From Anaerolineales bacterium (GTDB taxonomy: Bacteria; Chloroflexota; Anaerolineae; Anaerolineales; Villigracilaceae): 14,824 nucleotides of DNA. Below are positions 1 through 13,160 of the stretch, one piece after another. The DNA lies in NCBI GenBank assembly GCA_016789485.1, contig JAEURE010000037.1:1-14824 (forward strand), read 5' to 3'. The position numbers were made by a program, and so were the translations under genes. The notes beneath the pieces are model-generated. The model did not search any database. It had not been told where the DNA came from and worked only from the letters and a program-made list of their open reading frames with translations. The stretch's first letter is position 1. Each line of letters begins with the position of its first letter.

Positions 1-431
1 AGCAGGGTAAACTCGTGTGCCTTGGCGGATGGATTTGTCTTCGCGGCTTTCTTGACGACAGGCTTGCCCAACTTCCCGACCCAGGCTTGGAATTTGGTGT
101 TGAGGATATTCGCCTGCACGGACATTTGTTCAAATTCCGAGAGGATGCGCATGGCCGTCTGGTTGCGAGAGTCGGTGGAAATGAACGAGTAGATGTAAGG
201 ATTGATGGTGCCAGAGAGTTCAAAGATCTCATTGAAGCGGTCTACTGATTCGCCGAGAAGTTTGCCAAGTTTCTTCGGGTCGGTCTTTGAATCTGCCTTG
301 CTGGCTTTTTTGAAAAACACTTCCATTTCATCCAACAGGGATTTGTATTTCTTGATGGCGTTCTTGAATTCCTTCGATTCAAGTGAGGGATAGACGTTGG
401 TCAGATCCCAGCGGGTTGCGGAAACGGTCAT
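1..431 (-). CDS. pepF: Oligoendopeptidase F (M3 family), N-terminal part
   Basis: Reading leftwards from ATG 431-429, the frame stays open to the window edge, giving 143 residues starting MTVSATRWDLTNVYPSLES. The RWDLTNVYPSLES opening is the typical start of PepF/M3B oligoendopeptidases, zinc metallopeptidases of about 600 residues that cleave short peptides in the cytoplasm. The helical N-terminal region follows, with segments such as LGESVDRFNEIFELSGTI and YIYSFISTDSRN. A lysine-rich insertion (KKASKADSKTDPKK) lies near residue 40. The catalytic HExxH motif would lie far downstream, outside the window, so activity cannot be judged. AAGGAG at 443-438, six bases before ATG, fixes the start. 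The gene is divergent from the 580-1053 gene. PepF is my best call; another M3B peptidase is possible. Confidence 0.85.
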   Translation of the reverse strand, partial: MTVSATRWDLTNVYPSLESKEFKNAIKKYKSLLDEMEVFFKKASKADSKTDPKKLGKLLGESVDRFNEIFELSGTINPYIYSFISTDSRNQTAMRILSEFEQMSVQANILNTKFQAWVGKLGKPVVKKAAKTNPSAKAHEFTL

Positions 432-459
432 GGTGATCTCCTTGTGAAAAGATGGATTA

Positions 460-486
460 AGTATACCGTGATTGAGTTTTGAGCAA
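460..486 (-). promoter_or_regulatory. Possible sigma70 promoter of the oligoendopeptidase gene
   Basis: On the minus strand a TTGCTC hexamer (486-481) is followed after 15 bases by TATACT (465-460), about 30 bases before the ATG at 431. The -10 box is good, while the -35 and the short spacer are weak. Its place between divergent genes supports a promoter, but the exact one is uncertain. Confidence 0.4.
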
Positions 487-579
487 TACCTACTTAAGAA
501 GGGTCAAATTGCGGAACATTTGTATGGATGATTCAGTCATTTTTAGAGTACAGTTAATATAGATAAATGGAGGTGTTTT

Positions 580-3166: not shown

Positions 3167-4300
3167 ATGAAAGTAACTGTCCTTCAAGAAAATCTTGCAC
3201 GCGGTTTGAGCATTGTTTCACGTGCTGTGTCACCGCGTAGCACACTTCCCGTTTTATCGAATATTTTGATTGCAACCGATGAAGGCCGCCTGCGGCTCTC
3301 TGCAACCAACCTTGAATTGGGTATTACTTGTTGGATCGCGGCGCGCATTGACGAAGAAGGTTCGACCACCGTTCCTTCTCGCACGTTCTCTGACCTTGTG
3401 AGCGCCATGCCGAGCGATCAGGTACAGTTGACCCTCGATACGAAAACTCAGAGCCTGCATGTAAAAGGCGGTGCATCGAATAACGATATCAAGTGTATTG
3501 ATGCTCAGGAATTTCCGCCGCTCCCCACGCCTGAAATGGACAGCGCGATCCAGTTGAACGTGGCTGATTTCAAAGAGATGATCCATCAGGTTGCGTTTGC
3601 TTCTTCGACAGACGAAGCCCGCCCGGTGTTGATGGGCGTGTTGATGCATGTGGAAAAAGATAAAGTGACGATGGCGGCGGCTGATGGCTTCCGTCTTTCC
3701 GTCCGCAAGGCGCAGTTATCTCAGGCTGTTTCCCAGCCGATCAATGTCATCATTCCCGCGCGCGCATTGAACGAATTAGCCCGCGTTGCCAGCGATGGCG
3801 AAGAACCCATTTACATGGTTGTCCCGAAGAATCGCGGACAGGTCCTCTTCCGCGTGAAGGATGTGGAAGTGGTCTCGCAGTTGATTGACGGAACCTTCCC
3901 CGATTATCAGCAAATTATTCCGCGCAATTATAAATCGCGCACACTGGTTTCAACCGCCACCCTCCTCAAGGCTTGCAAGCAGGCAGAGATCTTTGCGCGT
4001 GAAGGTTCGAATGTGGCGCGTTTGGATATCAAAGAATCCAAAGGTGAGATGCAGCCAAGTGAAGTGGAAATCTCAGCAACTTCCGAGGAAACCGGCAAGA
4101 ACGAGACCATCGTCGAAGCCACAGTGGATGGCGGCAGTGTGCTGATCGCGTTCAATGTCAAATTCCTGCGCGAGGCGCTGGAAGTCATCAGGACCCCGAA
4201 TGTGGCGCTGGAAACTTCCGCCGCGAATGCGCCGGGCGTAATCCGCCCGGTCGGTGATGACAACTTCCTGCATGTCATCATGCCGATGCATTTGGGATAA
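3167..4300 (+). CDS. dnaN: DNA polymerase III subunit beta (sliding clamp)
   Basis: The product is the ring-shaped dimeric clamp that tethers replicative polymerase to DNA and docks many repair and replication proteins. Its 377 residues fit the usual 365-380 and three clamp domains. Family landmarks are present in order: MKVTVLQENLARGLSIVSRAV at the start with TLPVLSNILI, ARPVLMGVLM and ADGFRLSVRKA in the middle, ARALNELAR, the hallmark LIDGTFPDYQQIIP, and the C-terminal MPMHLG, equivalent to the MPM-R-L end that forms part of the partner-binding cleft. GAGGG (3153-3157), nine bases upstream, supports the start, and TATACT at 3123-3128 may be a -10 box. Neither dnaA, recF nor gyrB adjoins it, unlike the classical origin cluster. 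A strong terminator follows. Confidence 0.98.
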   Translation: MKVTVLQENLARGLSIVSRAVSPRSTLPVLSNILIATDEGRLRLSATNLELGITCWIAARIDEEGSTTVPSRTFSDLVSAMPSDQVQLTLDTKTQSLHVKGGASNNDIKCIDAQEFPPLPTPEMDSAIQLNVADFKEMIHQVAFASSTDEARPVLMGVLMHVEKDKVTMAAADGFRLSVRKAQLSQAVSQPINVIIPARALNELARVASDGEEPIYMVVPKNRGQVLFRVKDVEVVSQLIDGTFPDYQQIIPRNYKSRTLVSTATLLKACKQAEIFAREGSNVARLDIKESKGEMQPSEVEISATSEETGKNETIVEATVDGGSVLIAFNVKFLREALEVIRTPNVALETSAANAPGVIRPVGDDNFLHVIMPMHLG

Positions 4301-6828: not shown

Positions 6829-6872
6829 TAGTAATTAGAACAAATGTTCTATTTGTTTTCGCCTCATTACTA
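6829..6872. repeat. AT-rich nested palindrome at convergent gene ends
   Basis: TAGTAAT (6829-6835) and ATTACTA (6866-6872) form an outer 7-bp stem that includes the TAG stop of the YhfC gene. Inside, AACAAAT (6839-6845) and ATTTGTT (6851-6857) form a second 7-bp stem with loop GTTCT. An overlapping palindrome, AGAACAAATGTTCT, spans 6837-6850. It may help transcription end on the minus strand; the AT-rich stems are weak. Confidence 0.45.
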
Positions 6873-7667
6873 GCCCGCGCCTGCTCCCGTTTCCTCAAGC
6901 TGACTCTGTGCCTGAACATTCAGTGCTTCTGCGAATTTTGGTTTTATCCAAAATATGATGAATAGACTGATCACTGCGCAAATTCCAATGATCCCTTCCA
7001 GCGCAAGCATGTCAATTTTCTGGACAAGATAAACTGCCAGCGCATCCACAATGGTGTGCCATAAAACCGCCAGCCAGAACCATACCTTATTTTTAGTGAC
7101 AAGCCCATACAGCACCATCAAAGACAAGGCCACATGCAGTGTCATGGCAAAGATGCGTTCGACCAGCCCAAGGATTGCCATGTGTGCAGGTGTTGACCAG
7201 TATTCCTTAACCTGTTGTGTCGCCAATTCAACTTGTTCGGCTGGAATGCTCGGCACCGTGGAGAGGTCCATGTTGCGATATGCAAGCATGTTCACAAAGG
7301 TCAACAAGGTAATGACGCCAAGCAGAATGGCTTCGACTCCGCCATGTCCGATGCCGACATAAACACCTTCATTCCACGTTCTTGTTTTCTTGAGAATGAA
7401 TTTGTATAGGAAATAACGAGCTGTTTCTTCAAAGAGTCCTGCCAGCAGCCCAAGCACAATGGCGGATATGACAATGTTCAAAGATTGAAGAGATGAATTT
7501 AATGCCAGCACCAACGGAATGTGCAGAACCTGTGATGCGATGAAGGTCAATGCGCCGGCTAGAAAAAGTTTCCAGGATAGTTTCAACTTTCGAGAGAAAT
7601 AGAACGCGGCGATTAGGGGCAAAAGGAGCATGCCCAACGAGTTAATAACGAGTAGAATTTCAAGCAT
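6870..7667 (-). CDS. YhfC-family glutamic-type intramembrane protease
   Basis: This 265-residue, very hydrophobic protein has about seven or eight predicted membrane helices. It shows the YhfC/PF10086 motif set, related to the CPBP/Abi family to which eukaryotic Rce1 belongs: Glu-Glu-x-x-Arg at 80-84 (EETARY), GIGHGGVEA at 106-113 (His108, Glu112), His178 in LHVALS and His204/Asp208 in WHTIVDA. These residues are the expected catalytic and metal- or water-positioning set, so it looks active. Relatives are membrane proteases, some linked to bacteriocin immunity; the substrate is unknown. The ATG overlaps the stop of the upstream DUF4177 gene by one base (TAATG), so translation is probably coupled. 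The last 15 residues (Gln/Glu/Gly/Ala-rich, ending GAGAG) form a short soluble tail. Confidence 0.88.
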   Translation of the reverse strand: MLEILLVINSLGMLLLPLIAAFYFSRKLKLSWKLFLAGALTFIASQVLHIPLVLALNSSLQSLNIVISAIVLGLLAGLFEETARYFLYKFILKKTRTWNEGVYVGIGHGGVEAILLGVITLLTFVNMLAYRNMDLSTVPSIPAEQVELATQQVKEYWSTPAHMAILGLVERIFAMTLHVALSLMVLYGLVTKNKVWFWLAVLWHTIVDALAVYLVQKIDMLALEGIIGICAVISLFIIFWIKPKFAEALNVQAQSQLEETGAGAG

Positions 7668-7923: not shown

Positions 7924-7939
7924 TGTTTCACGTGAAACA
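7924..7939. promoter_or_regulatory. parS site (ParB-binding), copy 1
   Basis: TGTTTCACGTGAAACA is an exact match to the 16-bp consensus parS palindrome known from Bacillus and conserved across most bacterial phyla. ParB loads there as a CTP-dependent clamp and recruits ParA and SMC for segregation of the chromosome origin. It lies between the SdpI-family gene and the DUF4177 gene, touching the ribosome-binding region of the latter. dnaN ends 3.6 kb away. Confidence 0.93.
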
Positions 7940-7975
7940 GAACTGCATGACCCTGCAAGAGCCATGCAATTCATT

Positions 7976-8626
7976 TCAGGCATGGGTTTCCTGGCGATAC
8001 ACAATATAAGAATAAATCACCAAAAAAATCGTTGACCCAATCAACGGAACGAACATCAGCCAAAAGGCTATCATGCCGCCGAAGAATCCTCCCAGGATGG
8101 CGAATGCTCCTGAAAGCATGAACAGAACCGAGCCGAGTTGATGCGTCTTATCCCAGACGGTATCGCTGGAAAGAGTCCATGGAGTCCGAATCCCGATGAA
8201 GAAGTTGCGCTTTGCTTTTCGCAGCAAAAAGCCGATGGCAATGAACAGGATGCCCATGAACGGCAGCATGGCTGCGCTCATTTTGAAATCCTGATACCCA
8301 AGGCTCCAGACTAAAGTCAGCGCGTGGATGTAAAGCATGAATGCCGCGATCAGCGCGATGAAAACGTTGAAAGTCTCGCGGAATTGCGCGATGTTCGCCT
8401 TGAGCGGGTCGATGTTCGGGACGACCAGGAACAGTGCGAACATGCCCAGCGTGATCAGCGGCATCATCCATACGCCCCAGAATTTGGGCATGGTGCCATC
8501 CACCTGATCATTTGCGTTCCAGTGAGAAGCCATTTGTTCAGGGAGTTGATTCCAAAGCGCCAGGCCTGCGATCAAAGCAACGGCGATCAGGGTCAGTACA
8601 ATAATGGAAGTGGTTTTGGTTGTCAT
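7976..8626 (-). CDS. SdpI-family membrane protein (DUF1648 + SdpI domain)
   Basis: The 216-residue protein is predicted to have six membrane helices. The N-terminal DUF1648 module is at about 12-60 (LPEQMASHWNANDQVDG followed by PKFWGVWMMPLI). The SdpI signature is at 141-162, with NFFIGIRTPWTLSS, then TVWDKTH, then two final helices. In Bacillus subtilis, SdpI gives immunity to the SdpC killing peptide and signals to the repressor SdpR. Most homologues elsewhere are uncharacterised, and no sdpC-like toxin or ArsR-type sdpR is seen here. AAAGGA just upstream supports the ATG at 8626. A parS palindrome lies 20 bases upstream of the start. It appears to belong to the operon headed by the GntR regulator. 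Confidence 0.88.
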   Translation of the reverse strand: MTTKTTSIIVLTLIAVALIAGLALWNQLPEQMASHWNANDQVDGTMPKFWGVWMMPLITLGMFALFLVVPNIDPLKANIAQFRETFNVFIALIAAFMLYIHALTLVWSLGYQDFKMSAAMLPFMGILFIAIGFLLRKAKRNFFIGIRTPWTLSSDTVWDKTHQLGSVLFMLSGAFAILGGFFGGMIAFWLMFVPLIGSTIFLVIYSYIVYRQETHA

Positions 8627-8645
8627 TCTTTTTCCTTTCTAAAAG

Positions 8646-8661
8646 CGTTTCACGTGAAACG
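8646..8661. promoter_or_regulatory. parS site (ParB-binding), copy 2
   Basis: CGTTTCACGTGAAACG is a perfect 16-bp palindrome holding the full parS core GTTTCACGTGAAAC (8647-8660), differing from consensus only in the outermost base pair. It lies in the 86-bp gap between the slipin and SdpI-family genes, 722 bp centre to centre from copy 1. Confidence 0.9.
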
Positions 8662-8672
8662 TTGTTTTTATA

Positions 8673-8712: not shown

Positions 8713-9639
8713 TCATTTTTCCTTTGGAACCGTATTTTGCGCGAGCGAGACCATTCCGCTCAAGCCGCCGAGATTCATCGTATCCACTGCGGAAGACGGG
8801 ACGATCACCAGCGCGCCTTTCTCTTTCAGTCCTTCAAACAGCATGTTCATCGCGCGCAAGTGCAACGCGGTAGGATTGTTGATGTAGGCTTGCGAAGCCT
8901 CGGAGAATGAAGCCGCGATCTGCTTCTCAGATTCGCCGAGGATCACACGCGCCTGACGTTCACGCTCCGCCTGGGCCTGACGGGACATGGCATCTTCCAG
9001 ATCCTGCGGAATGACGATGTCGCGAATTTCCACAGACTGCACGGTCACACCCCAGGGGGTTGTGCGCTCGTCAATGACAGCCTGAAGTTCCTTGTCAATC
9101 GCGCTGCGTCCAACGAGAATATCTGCCAGCATCTTCTTGCCGATGATGTCACGTAGCGCGGTTTGGGCAGCCCAGTCCACTGCGGCGCGGTAATCTTCCA
9201 CTTCAAGCGCGGCTTTCTCCGCATCCCACACGACCCAGAACAGTACAGCATCCACATCCACTGGCACGGTATCCTTCGTCAGCGTTTTCTGTGCGGCGAA
9301 TGGCGTAACCATCACGCGGTGATCGATCCAGGTTGCCGCATTATCCACGATTGGGATGATCCAGAACAAGCCGGGTCCTCTCAACCCGATGAATTTGCCG
9401 AAACGCAGCACGATCACCTTTTGCCATTGCGAGGCAACCTTCAGGGCAAACAGCATATAGGTGCCAACGGCTGTCCAGCCAAGAACCCACGCACCAAGCA
9501 CTGCATCTGGATATTTGCCATCTCCAAGTATGGCTCCCAAGGTTGCGATAACAAGGAACACTCCAAACAACGTTCCTGCGATCGGTGGAATGTGCTGTTC
9601 TTCTTTTTTGATCATTGAATTAAGTAACTTTGGTCTCAT
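8713..9639 (-). CDS. Slipin-family (stomatin-like) SPFH protein
   Basis: This 308-residue protein has two hydrophobic helices near the N-terminus (about 18-38 and 48-66) and then a stomatin/band 7 SPFH domain from about 68 to 250. Recognisable slipin segments are VIVLRFGKFIGLRGPGLFWIIPIVD, TKDTVPVDVDAVLFWVVWD, LRDIIGK, GVTVQSVEIRDIVIPQDLEDAM and the charged helix RQAQAERERQARVILGE. Slipins oligomerise on the inner membrane into scaffold-like microdomains and often pair with an NfeD-type protease; no NfeD gene is visible here. CAGGAG about nine bases upstream supports the ATG at 9639; Met9 is an alternative without a good binding site. It lies 23 bp downstream of the GntR gene and is almost certainly cotranscribed with it. 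Confidence 0.92.
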   Translation of the reverse strand: MRPKLLNSMIKKEEQHIPPIAGTLFGVFLVIATLGAILGDGKYPDAVLGAWVLGWTAVGTYMLFALKVASQWQKVIVLRFGKFIGLRGPGLFWIIPIVDNAATWIDHRVMVTPFAAQKTLTKDTVPVDVDAVLFWVVWDAEKAALEVEDYRAAVDWAAQTALRDIIGKKMLADILVGRSAIDKELQAVIDERTTPWGVTVQSVEIRDIVIPQDLEDAMSRQAQAERERQARVILGESEKQIAASFSEASQAYINNPTALHLRAMNMLFEGLKEKGALVIVPSSAVDTMNLGGLSGMVSLAQNTVPKEK

Positions 9640-9662: not shown

Positions 9663-10082
9663 TTATTCGTCATCACTGTCTTTCGCTTCTTTCCATGACT
9701 TGAGGCTGTCTCTCACCATCTGGCTGACTTCACGTTCTGAGAATCCCAGACGGAACGACTCGTTGATGAATCTGTGTGTAAGCGCGGCAAGCGATTCATT
9801 CCTGAGCTTTTCACTGACCTCCGGTGGCGGAATTTCAGTGATGTAGGTGCCGCGTCCTTGCTGCGTGGATATGATGCGTGCTTCATCCAATATACGATAC
9901 GCACGCGCCACGGTGTTGAAGTTGACGCGCAGTTCCTGCGCCAGTGCACGAACAGTTGGAAGCTGGTCACCGGGTTTGAGAATCCCATTTGCCAATTGAC
10001 TTTGGATCTGCTCCACGATCTGTGTGTAAATGGGCAGTCCGGAGTGAAAGTCAAGTTGGAGAGGTTGCTTTTTCTCTGTCAT
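9663..10082 (-). CDS. GntR-family transcriptional regulator, YtrA type
   Basis: This 139-residue regulator has an N-terminal GntR winged helix: PIYTQIVEQIQSQLANGILKPGDQLPTVR at about 17-45, recognition region LAQELRVNFNTVARAYRILDE, wing QQGRGTYIT. Only about 55 residues follow, a helical dimerisation tail as in the YtrA subfamily, not the large ligand domains of FadR or HutC types and not the aminotransferase domain of MocR types. YtrA-type proteins usually repress their own operon, often one encoding membrane proteins or ABC transporters induced by cell-wall or membrane stress. AAAGGAG at 10094-10088, five bases upstream, fixes the start. Four ATTGTA repeats just upstream overlap the promoter and probably form its operator. 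It heads the minus-strand run slipin, SdpI-like, DUF4177, YhfC. Confidence 0.93.
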   Translation of the reverse strand: MTEKKQPLQLDFHSGLPIYTQIVEQIQSQLANGILKPGDQLPTVRALAQELRVNFNTVARAYRILDEARIISTQQGRGTYITEIPPPEVSEKLRNESLAALTHRFINESFRLGFSEREVSQMVRDSLKSWKEAKDSDDE

Positions 10083-10311: not shown

Positions 10312-11199
10312 ATGGAAACAAAAACTGGTACATGGACTGAGAAAAAAGGTTTGGCTCAAATGTTAAAAGGCGGCGTCATCATGGACGTGGTGAATGCCGA
10401 GCAAGCCAAAATTGCTGAAGATGCCGGTGCGTGCGCGGTGATGGCGTTGGAACGCGTGCCTGCTGATATTCGCGCGGACGGCGGTGTGGCGCGTATGTCT
10501 GACCCCGATATGATCTTGAAGATCATTGATGCGGTCAGCATCCCTGTGATGGCGAAGTGCCGCATTGGACATTTTGTGGAAGCGCAGATTTTGGAAGCCA
10601 TCGGCGTGGATTATATTGATGAATCCGAAGTGCTCACACCTGCGGATGAAGAACATCATATTTTGAAGCATAACTTTAAGGTTCCTTTTGTGTGCGGATG
10701 CCGTAATATCGGTGAGGCATTGCGCCGCATTGGGGAAGGCGCTGCAATGATCCGCACGAAAGGCGAAGCTGGTACGGGCGACGTAGTGGAGGCTGTGCGC
10801 CATGCACGCAGTGTGATCGGTTCGATCAAACATTTGCAGGTGATGGACGATGAAGAGTTGATGACCTTCGCCAAGAATAACGGCGCCCCGTATGAATTGG
10901 TAAAGGAAGTGAAAGAATTGGGACGTTTGCCCGTTGTCAATTTTGCGGCGGGCGGTGTTGCGACACCGGCAGATGCGGCGTTGATGATGCAGCTCGGCGT
11001 GGATGGCGTCTTCGTTGGTTCTGGAATTTTCAAGAGCGGCGACCCTGCCAAGCGCGCGGCGGCTATTGTCAAATCAGTGACACATTATCAGGACGCGTCC
11101 ATTCTCGCGGAGGTGAGCAAGAATCTTGGCGAGGCGATGGTCGGACGCAATGCCGCACAAATGCCCGAAAGTGAAAAGCTCGCGGTACGCGGCTGGTAA
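10312..11199 (+). CDS. pdxS: Pyridoxal 5'-phosphate synthase lyase subunit PdxS
   Basis: PdxS condenses ribose 5-phosphate (or ribulose 5-phosphate), glyceraldehyde 3-phosphate and ammonia to make PLP in the DXP-independent vitamin B6 route. The 295-residue length and a near-complete match to the family leave no doubt. Visible key residues are Asp25 in [10 protein letters not shown], the catalytic lysines Lys82 in [12 protein letters not shown] and Lys150 in [17 protein letters not shown], the phosphate-binding segment [19 protein letters not shown], and [10 protein letters not shown]. The protein forms a dodecameric (beta/alpha)8 barrel core decorated by PdxT. AAGGAG (10299-10304), seven bases upstream, supports the ATG. 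pdxT follows 75 bp downstream with an inverted repeat between them. Confidence 0.98.
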
Positions 11200-11206
11200 A
11201 TAAATT

Positions 11207-11269
11207 AACTTTCAGCGGTCAGCGAATAGCAGCAAGCCCGCTTGCGTTGGCTGCTGAAAGTCGAAAGTT
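11207..11269. repeat. Nested inverted repeat between pdxS and pdxT
   Basis: ACTTTCAGC (11208-11216) pairs perfectly with GCTGAAAGT (11253-11261). Inside, GCAAGC (11232-11237) and GCTTGC (11240-11245) form a second palindrome. The 5' AACTTTC (11207-11213) can alternatively pair with GAAAGTT (11263-11269), giving two competing stems. There is no T-tract, so a standard terminator is unlikely. It begins 7 bases after the pdxS stop and ends 5 bases before the pdxT ATG, occupying the place where a ribosome-binding site should be. Confidence 0.65.
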
Positions 11270-11274
11270 GATCT

Positions 11275-11853
11275 ATGAAAATAGGCGTTTTAGCCTTACA
11301 AGGCGATTTTGCAGAACATATTTCCATGCTGAAAAAAATCGGTGTGGAGACGGCGGAAGTGCGTTTACCCAAACACCTTGATGGATTGGACGGGTTGATC
11401 ATGCCTGGCGGCGAATCCACAACGATTGGCAAGCTGGCTGTTGCGTATGGATTAATGGAGCCATTGCGTGAGTTTGGAAAAATCCATGCGGTTTGGGGAA
11501 CGTGTGCAGGTGCTATTTTTCTTTCCCGGGATATTGGACGAGACCAGCCCCTGCTTGAATTAATGGATATCAAAGTCCGGCGCAATGCGTTTGGACGGCA
11601 GATCGACTCTTTCGAGACAGACCTCGAAATTGATGAACTGATGAAAGCCACCGGCACGGAGCATCCCTACCATGCGGTGTTCATCCGCGCGCCGATCATT
11701 GAATCTGTCAGTGGAAACGCAAAGGTCCTTTCGGCTTTGGAAGATGGACGTATCGTGGCTGCGCAGCAAGGACATTTACTGGCAACTTCCTTCCACCCTG
11801 AGTTGACCGGCGACACTCGTTTTCACGAATACTTTATTTCGCTTGCAAGTTAA
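11275..11853 (+). CDS. pdxT: Pyridoxal 5'-phosphate synthase glutaminase subunit PdxT
   Basis: PdxT hydrolyses glutamine and channels ammonia to PdxS. It is a class I glutamine amidotransferase of 192 residues, normal for the family. MKIGVLALQGDFAEH opens the protein; LIMPGGESTT supplies the oxyanion region; the nucleophile is Cys77 in WGTCAGA; and His174/Glu176 in SFHPELTGD complete the triad. RNAFGRQIDSFE is the usual PdxS-contact stretch. The ATG lacks a clear Shine-Dalgarno sequence because the preceding bases belong to an inverted repeat (a weak GAAAG is present). Expression may therefore depend on the structure of that leader or on pdxS readthrough. This start is nevertheless the conserved N-terminus. 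Confidence 0.97.
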   Translation: MKIGVLALQGDFAEHISMLKKIGVETAEVRLPKHLDGLDGLIMPGGESTTIGKLAVAYGLMEPLREFGKIHAVWGTCAGAIFLSRDIGRDQPLLELMDIKVRRNAFGRQIDSFETDLEIDELMKATGTEHPYHAVFIRAPIIESVSGNAKVLSALEDGRIVAAQQGHLLATSFHPELTGDTRFHEYFISLAS

Positions 11854-11861
11854 TAACGAGA

Positions 11862-11915
11862 CCCCAGGTTTTTTTAATTAATTGCGGTTATGATTAATCG
11901 CAGGAACCTCCAGGG
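11862..11915. other. Structured leader between pdxT and the next gene
   Basis: TGCGGTTA (11883-11890) and TAATCGCA (11895-11902) form an 8-bp stem (one G-T pair) with a TGAT loop. Outside it AGGTT (11866-11870) pairs with AACCT (11905-11909), and CCC (11862-11864) can pair with GGG (11913-11915). The moderately T-rich TTTCTATTTTC follows. It could terminate the pdxST transcript or fold as the leader of the next gene; the sequence alone does not decide. Confidence 0.4.
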
Positions 11916-11929
11916 TTTCTATTTTCAAT

Positions 11930-12847
11930 ATGCCCATACGCCCGCTTGACCTGCTCGATATTCCCACCATTGCACGTTATCGCAACGATGTGTTGACCCT
12001 CGATAGCGCGCGTGCCCTTACGCGTGGTCATCCTCTGGGTGCGATGGGGCTGTTGGCATATATCAACCCGGCGCGGCATTTGTATTCGGCAATTTCCAAC
12101 GGTGCTGAGTCTACTTTGTTGGGCGGCGTGATTCACACGCGCGGCGATACGTTCGCAAAATTGCTGTATCTTGCGCCTTCCTCCCAATTGCATGCCCCCC
12201 ACCTTCCAGCGTTGATCGAGCACCTTTCATTTCAGGCTGGGGAATGGCAGGCAATGCATGTCATTGCAGAGGTGGAGGAGAATAGCGATGTATTTCCTGC
12301 GCTTCGGATGGCCGGGTTCTCCGTTTACGCGTGGCAGCGGGTTTGGGATGTGAGTCTGCTGGAGAAAACAGAAGCAGAGAACGGCGGGGGATGGAAGCGT
12401 ATTCAGTCCATTGACCTGCATGCGGTGCAGAGCCTTCATTATCAGATCGTGCCTCAGTTGCTGCATCCCGTTGAACCTGCACCGAATCGTGTGATCGGTT
12501 TTGTGCATCAGGGATTGAAATGTTTTGCAAACGTCACCGCCGGCATGTATGGCATTGTGTTGACTCCCTTAATTCATCCCGATGAACAAAATGTCAGCGA
12601 AAAAATCCTGTCGCTTGTGGCGAATCTTCCAGACCGCCGCGGACGCGCTGTGTATTTAAATGTGCGTTCCTATCAGGCGTGGCTGGAGCCGGTCCTCGAA
12701 GATTTGGGCGCAAAGGCATCTGCGCGGCAGGCGGTGATGGTGAAACACCTTGCCCGTTTGGTGACCAATGGCCAGGCAGCGCGCGCAGTTCCAACGAACG
12801 TGGGTGTTCAGCCTTCGCGTATAAGCAGGATGGATATCGATGAATAG
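11930..12847 (+). CDS. GNAT-like acyltransferase-fold protein, uncharacterised
   Basis: The 305 residues look like two GNAT-type halves. The first, MPIRPLDLLDIPTIARYRNDVLTLDS, begins like an acetyltransferase. It continues with a GGVIHTRGDTFAKLLYLAP strand pair, a helix (LPALIEHLSFQAGEWQAMHVIAEV) and a FPALRMAGFSVYAWQRVWDV ending typical of GNAT domains. The second half repeats this logic (WKRIQSIDLHAVQSLHYQIVPQL, GMYGIVLTPLIHP, RAVYLNVRSYQAWLEPVLEDLGA). The acetyl-CoA pyrophosphate loop (R/Q-x-x-G-x-G/A) is not evident, so catalysis is doubtful. I assign only the fold, by eye. The start has a poor ribosome-binding site (AGGG 14 bases upstream). The 3' end overlaps the next gene by eight bases. 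Confidence 0.65.
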   Translation: MPIRPLDLLDIPTIARYRNDVLTLDSARALTRGHPLGAMGLLAYINPARHLYSAISNGAESTLLGGVIHTRGDTFAKLLYLAPSSQLHAPHLPALIEHLSFQAGEWQAMHVIAEVEENSDVFPALRMAGFSVYAWQRVWDVSLLEKTEAENGGGWKRIQSIDLHAVQSLHYQIVPQLLHPVEPAPNRVIGFVHQGLKCFANVTAGMYGIVLTPLIHPDEQNVSEKILSLVANLPDRRGRAVYLNVRSYQAWLEPVLEDLGAKASARQAVMVKHLARLVTNGQAARAVPTNVGVQPSRISRMDIDE

Positions 12848-13160
12848 ATGGGCCGCGTACGATAATGGCCGCAGCATCGGAAAGATAAGCCCTGAAGGCG
12901 GCTTGATCATGCGGGATGAGGAACATCCCAGCGGCGCGCGCATCACCTTCAAACGCGGCAAAGGATATATTTCAGTTTCCTGTAATCTTTATGGTTGGAT
13001 GGATCACACACGTTTTTTCAGCACAGCCTCCGATGCCCAGCGTGAATATGTGGCGATGAAAGCGGCGCTCATTCACGTGTTGGATGTCATCAACACCGAC
13101 GATGTTAAAGATATAAAAATTTGGGAAGCAATCTCAGAATTTGTAAGGCGGTTTCCGTAA
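12840..13160 (+). CDS. Small conserved-looking hypothetical protein
   Basis: This is a 106-residue soluble protein. The first part (NRWAAYDNGRSIGKISPEGGLIMRDEEHPSGARITFKRG) and the following strands (YISVSCNLYGWMDHTRFFST) are rich in Gly, Trp and Tyr and look like a compact beta sheet. The rest is helical (SDAQREYVAMKAALIHVLDVI, IWEAISEFVRRF). I recall similar hypothetical proteins in other bacteria sharing the IIRDEEHP-GARIT and YGWM-HTRFF segments, but know no function. It starts within the preceding gene (shared bases ATGAATAG) and its stop overlaps the next start (TAATG), so all three genes are likely translated as one unit. Confidence 0.75.
   Translation: MNRWAAYDNGRSIGKISPEGGLIMRDEEHPSGARITFKRGKGYISVSCNLYGWMDHTRFFSTASDAQREYVAMKAALIHVLDVINTDDVKDIKIWEAISEFVRRFP

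Follow-up and report, generated by a model that had tools for sequence, protein, structure and literature searches.

Two perfect 16-bp palindromes lie close together in the window, as we call the whole 14,824-nucleotide stretch of an Anaerolineales contig (family Villigracilaceae) analysed here. Are they the parS sites of this chromosome, and do they mark its replication origin? A sequence-only reading had proposed both, describing the locus as an origin-proximal segregation centre. We found the two palindromes and their common 14-bp core GTTTCACGTGAAAC where it had placed them (7925-7938 and 8647-8660, 722 bp from start to start), and its expectation of 5e-5 is correct if the 14-mer is specified beforehand (14,824 / 4^14). 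The consensus of parS is tGTTTCACGTGAAACa, and both 16-bp palindromes fit it. The half-sites GTTTCAC and GTTCCAC are given for parS in PMC7022226.

The source assembly (477 contigs, 2,828,418 bp) contains exactly two exact copies of GTTTCACGTGAAAC, both in the window; it is 75.3% complete, and the missing part could hold further copies. Many scattered copies are thus excluded for this assembly, where the scan found what is expected of parS, namely few copies in one cluster. A single copy with one mismatch is located on a different contig, and the reversed motif, used as a control, had no match in the assembly at up to one mismatch. Allowing two mismatches still gave just two matches in the window, while 200 dinucleotide shuffles had a mean of 0.07 and never reached two. 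In the whole assembly, however, the reversed control was as frequent as the motif at this threshold (14 versus 12 matches), and for this reason two-mismatch matches were discarded as background and given no weight.

The palindromes are part of a block of minus-strand genes in the order gntR, band7, site 2, sdpI, site 1, duf4177-like and yhfC (Table 1), with start codons 15-20 bp beyond each site. Genes for pdxS/pdxT-type and HAD proteins follow on the plus strand at the other side of the block. The end of dnaN is 3.6 kb from parS, which agrees with the earlier statement that it lies within 4 kb. None of the promoter-like sites listed by a promoter scan of the window covers a parS site, and the number of sites was close to that of shuffled sequences (5 versus 3.6, sd 1.8). 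The terminator scan, with a yield not far above the shuffles (7 versus 4.1, sd 1.9), reported a terminator-like element at 8644-8663 of the plus strand; we rejected site 2 as a terminator, since the palindrome and a T-run explain the signal. A defence function of the block was likewise rejected, PADLOC giving no match for five proteins. Neither Rfam, used at its gathering threshold, nor a tRNA scan gave a match in the window.

Table 1. Coordinates of features in the window and in related genomes (window positions unless a locus or genome is named)
Feature	Position	Strand	Description
parS site 1	7924..7939	.	Perfect 16-bp palindrome TGTTTCACGTGAAACA; 15 bp before the start codon of the duf4177-like gene (minus strand)
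parS site 2	8646..8661	.	Perfect 16-bp palindrome CGTTTCACGTGAAACG; in the band7/sdpI gap, ~20 bp before the start codon of sdpI (minus strand)
dnaN (sliding clamp)	3167..4300	+	PF00712/PF02767/PF02768
PPDK_N-domain protein, 791 aa	4416..6791	+	PPDK_N domain; adjoins dnaN
YhfC-type intramembrane metalloprotease gene	6870..7667	-	PF10086
DUF4177-like, 80 aa	7667..7909	-	PF13783, E 2.2e-4, 21.8 bits, under the curated cut-off of 25; downstream neighbour of site 1
SdpI/DUF1648 membrane protein gene	7976..8626	-	PF13630 + PF07853; between both sites
SPFH/Band 7 protein gene	8713..9639	-	PF01145; upstream neighbour of site 2
GntR-family regulator gene	9663..10082	-	PF00392; head of the block
DnaA-box cluster, candidate oriC	L234 (G063) 12642-12863; L256 (G008) 327-560		Boxes in one orientation
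Map of G008 (4404 kb)	parS 476, dnaN 483, parB 3794, dnaA 3068 kb
Map of G063 (4128 kb)	parS 540, dnaN 573, parB 1516, dnaA 1487 kb
Map of G058 (3971 kb)	parS 3946, dnaN 3942, parB 3535, dnaA 553 kb

Related loci were collected by a search with the Band 7 protein, and the best 80 of 346 relatives together with the window make up 81 loci. According to their titles the 80 belong to Chloroflexi/Chloroflexota or a subgroup, with the exception of L070, titled Bacteroidetes. Most of the related loci analysed have kept the parS pair at this position: at up to one mismatch, 77 of the 81 contain at least one site and 62 at least two, and at least one exact site is present in 69. In many relatives the gap between sdpI and duf4177 holds a site. 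No site at this threshold was found in four loci, two of which are contigs of just 3.2 and 3.6 kb (L048 and L075), while L107 and L110 carry a two-mismatch variant near the band7/sdpI gap. All 33 one-mismatch sites differ at positions 4, 7, 8 and 11 alone, which are related by the palindrome. The columns flanking parS hold almost no information across the 81 loci; the conservation of the core is partly built in, because the sites were picked by similarity.

Several loci show rearrangements. In L109, sdpI was not detected, and ABC ATPase-like and permease-like genes, assigned by eye, take its place at 11150-12955; the parS-like sites of this locus start at 12400, with one mismatch, and at 12842 and 12955. 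In L038, a transposase-like gene (by eye) separates band7 from sdpI from 11018 onward, and the site normally found in this gap is absent. Matches to the PPDK_N protein and dnaN occur together in 28 of the 81 loci, many of the 81 being truncated.

The location of the sites close to start codons would suit a second function. It is conceivable, but in our view rather unlikely, that ParB bound at these parS sites also represses or tunes sdpI and duf4177, and that gene control partly accounts for the retention of the sites. Both sites would then act from a leader position, and a precedent is known from P. aeruginosa, where ParB at parS3 and parS4 represses adjacent promoters (PMC5521831); there, too, parS lies ahead of genes, and the likeness to the present sites is one of position. 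Against a dual role, the promoter scan found nothing over parS, some relatives have sites inside coding sequence or a single site left, and in Bacillus the loss of Spo0J left the genes next to parS unchanged (PMC7022226).

Far less probable is a function of the palindromes as operators through which a dimeric transcription factor, such as the block's own GntR regulator, controls sdpI and duf4177. In favour of it, operators of GntR regulators are typically GT...AC palindromes. All 81 loci have a gntR match, and both window sites fall in likely 5' leaders. The commonest gap between parS and the start of sdpI or duf4177 in relatives is 11-25 bp (starts extrapolated from tblastn), a position before two start codons that also suits a regulatory site and was counted against parS. 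However, all 143 sites found at up to one mismatch in the 81 loci are downstream of the band7 match and none is ahead of gntR, in the regulator's own promoter. Although 129 of the 143 lie outside the tested gene matches, the other 14 are within an ABC-transporter ATPase gene, where one reading frame applies to all of them and they translate as F-H-V-K, F-H-V-E or F-H-M-K; sites inside this gene disfavour a promoter operator. Moreover, other families and classes have exact sites in other gene settings, and the 14-mer is the exact consensus of ParB, a matching form of which is encoded in the genome. The ATPase gene with parS in its coding sequence follows sdpI in 11 loci (e.g. L037, L056, L062, L069 and L108), and in L037, L069 and L108 it contains parS twice, ~636 bp apart.

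Within the Villigracilaceae, 75 of 100 genomes have an exact site, with 0-3 exact copies per genome, whereas the reversed control matches in just one of the 100; 99 of 100 have an HTH_ParB match. A one-mismatch site occurs in 15 of the 25 genomes that lack an exact one, but since the reversed control matches 9 of these 25, lone matches of this kind are weak. Four of the 15 have paired one-mismatch sites, 684 bp (G071), 708 bp (G092), 679 bp (G065) and 72 bp (G085) apart. G001 and G024 carry only the one-mismatch form GTTTCAGGTGAAAC or its reverse complement, which is absent from the 81 block loci. No site at up to one mismatch was found in the other ten (G012, G032, G040, G046, G055, G064, G075, G079, G083 and G095). 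Near-complete assemblies are among them (G064 100%, G075 97%, G055 and G046 94%), and each of these four has a ParB match; some ParB-bearing relatives are therefore without a recognisable parS in their assemblies. These near-complete genomes, which would suit an operator, were counted against parS, as were the four site-less block loci.

In a sample of the phylum, an exact site was present in 175 of 301 genomes (18 of the 301 from the family), and the reversed control was non-zero in 3. We examined 16 loci of this sample (L280-L295), 13 of them from outside the family. Among these 13, band7 and sdpI adjoin the sites of L280, a PPDK_N match occurs ~0.6-0.8 kb from parS in L281-L283, parS of L291 is 96 bp ahead of a dnaN match, and that of L290 is within a YhfC match. 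None of 13 window proteins matched within ~1.5 kb of the sites in the other seven. Many exact parS copies occur in some distant Chloroflexota, namely several genomes of f21 g61, G175, G267 and G322, with up to 22 in G213.

The protein expected to bind parS is encoded in the source genome, where parA is located directly upstream of parB on another contig (C77); an absence of parB is thereby excluded. The ParB of 289 aa consists of ParB_N, HTH_ParB and ParB_C domains. Its best sequence match among structures is the ParB of 6t1f (E 3e-55), which we take to be the Caulobacter protein, followed by Spo0J of 1vz0. We compared 31 ParB loci, the source and the best 30 of the family ParB matches, and all 31 have parA on the same locus. 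A ScpA gene was found in each of the four genomes searched. A ParB HTH match also occurs in long open frames (650-1196 aa) of G038, G039, G019, G098 and others, which differ from the chromosomal ParB of ~290 aa.

Noc, the nucleoid occlusion protein, is a close relative of ParB, and Noc structures are also among the sequence matches of the source ParB. Noc-binding sites (NBS) share the site architecture of parS, and the palindromes might be taken for such sites. According to PMC7383237, the specificity residues 173, 179, 184 and 201 are R, T, A and G in Caulobacter ParB; R173 and G201 are absolutely conserved in ParB and replaced by Q173 and R201 in Noc, and the bases at positions 1 and 6 distinguish Noc sites from parS. 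The source ParB has R, T, G and G at these positions (Caulobacter numbering). Moreover, all 31 ParBs have R173, N178, T179, G201 and R204, whereas position 184 varies, and the window sites have G1 and A6 instead of the NBS bases. With the bases of parS and the residues of ParB, Noc sites are highly improbable. A chance duplication of the 14-mer is practically out of the question, as no shuffle reached two matches, in line with the earlier judgement, and the site recurs in 77 of 81 loci between flanks almost without information.

The exact sequence in two copies, a ParB with parS-specific residues and the wide conservation support well a reading of the palindromes as parS. We conclude that they are very probably the chromosomal centromere of this uncultured Anaerolineales bacterium, which would work via ParB clamps, SMC-ScpAB and ParA. 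From the sequence we infer binding and spreading of ParB, SMC loading and segregation at these sites. Dimers of ParB, encoded elsewhere in the genome, would load at both sites and close into CTP-dependent clamps, which may slide across the flanking gntR-band7-sdpI-duf4177-yhfC block. ParB on the DNA would then recruit SMC-ScpAB, and movement of the ParB-DNA complex by ParA could lead to early separation of this part of the chromosome.

Whether this centromere also lies at the origin was addressed in three single-contig relatives (G008, G063 and G058), each contig taken as a circle, because the source assembly is too fragmented to plot its skew. In these, parS is ~1.09, 0.97 and 0.41 Mb from parB and ~1.81, 0.94 and 0.58 Mb from dnaA, respectively. 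On shared contigs of other relatives, parB is 50-57 kb (G078, G073, G048), 165 kb (G014) or 391 kb (G041) from parS, so parB can be fairly near parS in some relatives; dnaA is ~373 kb (G078), 578 kb (G044) or 1.93 Mb (G041) away. In all 12 genomes inspected for it, dnaN shared a contig with parS, at a distance of 1.9-31.5 kb. The proximity of dnaN had been used as an argument for the origin. Since dnaN travels with parS while dnaA sits elsewhere, it is no independent evidence, and we rejected it as an origin marker.

GC skew was fitted with 40 stretches of ~20 kb per relative, sampled more densely around parS. The skew is weak and noisy, and the fitted origins are at ~0.50 Mb in G008, ~0.70 Mb in G063 and 3.76-3.80 Mb in G058. 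This places parS ~24, 160 and 146-186 kb from them, with a wide bootstrap: 25 bootstraps each gave 0.18-0.76 Mb, 0.22-0.70 Mb and, in 24 of 25, 3.72-3.90 Mb. A naive combined chance probability is 0.004 (G058 at 3.78 Mb), which ignores kinship and the denser sampling around parS. With 20 even stretches only, the six best origins shift to 4.22-0.02 Mb (G008), 0.56-0.66 Mb (G063) and 0.18-0.28 Mb (G058), and of the grid positions, 23 of 221, 10 of 207 and 20 of 199 outrank parS, as against 2, 17 and 14 when 40 stretches are used. Both dnaA and parB fit the skew worse than parS in six of six fits. A position of parS near the replication origin is thus weakly supported: of the proposed origin-proximal segregation centre, the segregation centre stands as the likely reading, and origin-proximal holds only loosely, on a weak and noisy skew in three relatives.

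The window itself has no DnaA-box cluster and is probably without oriC. The 80 related loci have no consistent cluster either, the largest same-strand group of exact boxes per 600 bp being none in 65, one in 11 and two in 4. Four exact same-strand TTATCCACA boxes within 600 bp were found in two of 120 sampled stretches, the other 118 having at most one, and 100 resamplings of each cluster stretch never gave more than one box. The two clusters are orthologous, located at the 3' end of rmlD before a DUF4260 gene, at ~793 kb (G063) and ~150 kb (G008). A DUF4260 protein search of 18 chosen genomes matched 8 and gave none in 10, including the source assembly. Smaller groups of 3-4 boxes, mostly with one mismatch, lie near DUF4260 in G037, G048, G058, G073 and G078, and no group was found near it in G082, of the same genus. 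The cluster is a candidate oriC away from dnaA and dnaN.

The distance between cluster and parS is ~252 kb in G063, 325 kb in G008, 269 kb in G058 and ~398 kb in G078 (partial protein match). It is possible, though doubtful, that the family centromere is a two-site mini-parS fixed beside dnaN in the block of membrane-protein genes and uncoupled from dnaA, parAB and the origin, which would be the DnaA-box cluster some 250-400 kb off. The 40-stretch skew origin falls between parS and cluster in G063 and G058, and with 40 stretches the cluster ranks 11 and parS 14 in G058. In G008, the cluster is clearly worse (49 versus 2). Overall, parS fits the skew better than the cluster in five of six fits and about equally in the sixth, which lowers the odds of the uncoupled arrangement. 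In Caulobacter the parS cluster is ~8 kb from ori (PMC5815017), unlike the 250-325 kb to the candidate oriC in the three relatives. Such distances are not disqualifying, because P. aeruginosa parS must sit within ~650 kb around the origin according to the same source.

We therefore regard the palindromes as a real parS locus of known type in a conserved, somewhat unusual setting. As in the chromosomal parS of Bacillus Spo0J and of Caulobacter and Pseudomonas ParB, the site is a perfect 16-bp palindrome with the core GTTTCACGTGAAAC, and adjacent parA-parB genes, a ParB with parS-specific residues and few clustered copies resemble ParABS. In contrast to known chromosomal parS, the two sites usually bracket a single gene, sdpI, and neither parAB nor dnaA adjoins them, which was counted against parS. 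The uncommon feature is the arrangement, in which parS stays with dnaN and is separate from parAB and dnaA. We found no study of this locus among the listed titles and abstract openings of the parS-ParB literature on Chloroflexi/Chloroflexota/Anaerolineae, a scope outside of which paywalled work falls, e.g. the 2007 Livny parS survey.

For the largely uncultured Anaerolineales, this pins a segregation site to an exact position and provides a map, open to testing, on which parS, parAB, dnaA and the candidate oriC are separate. If parS is indeed uncoupled from the origin in this family, segregation would start well after initiation, and ParB clamps would slide over, and perhaps silence, the SPFH-SdpI membrane operon.
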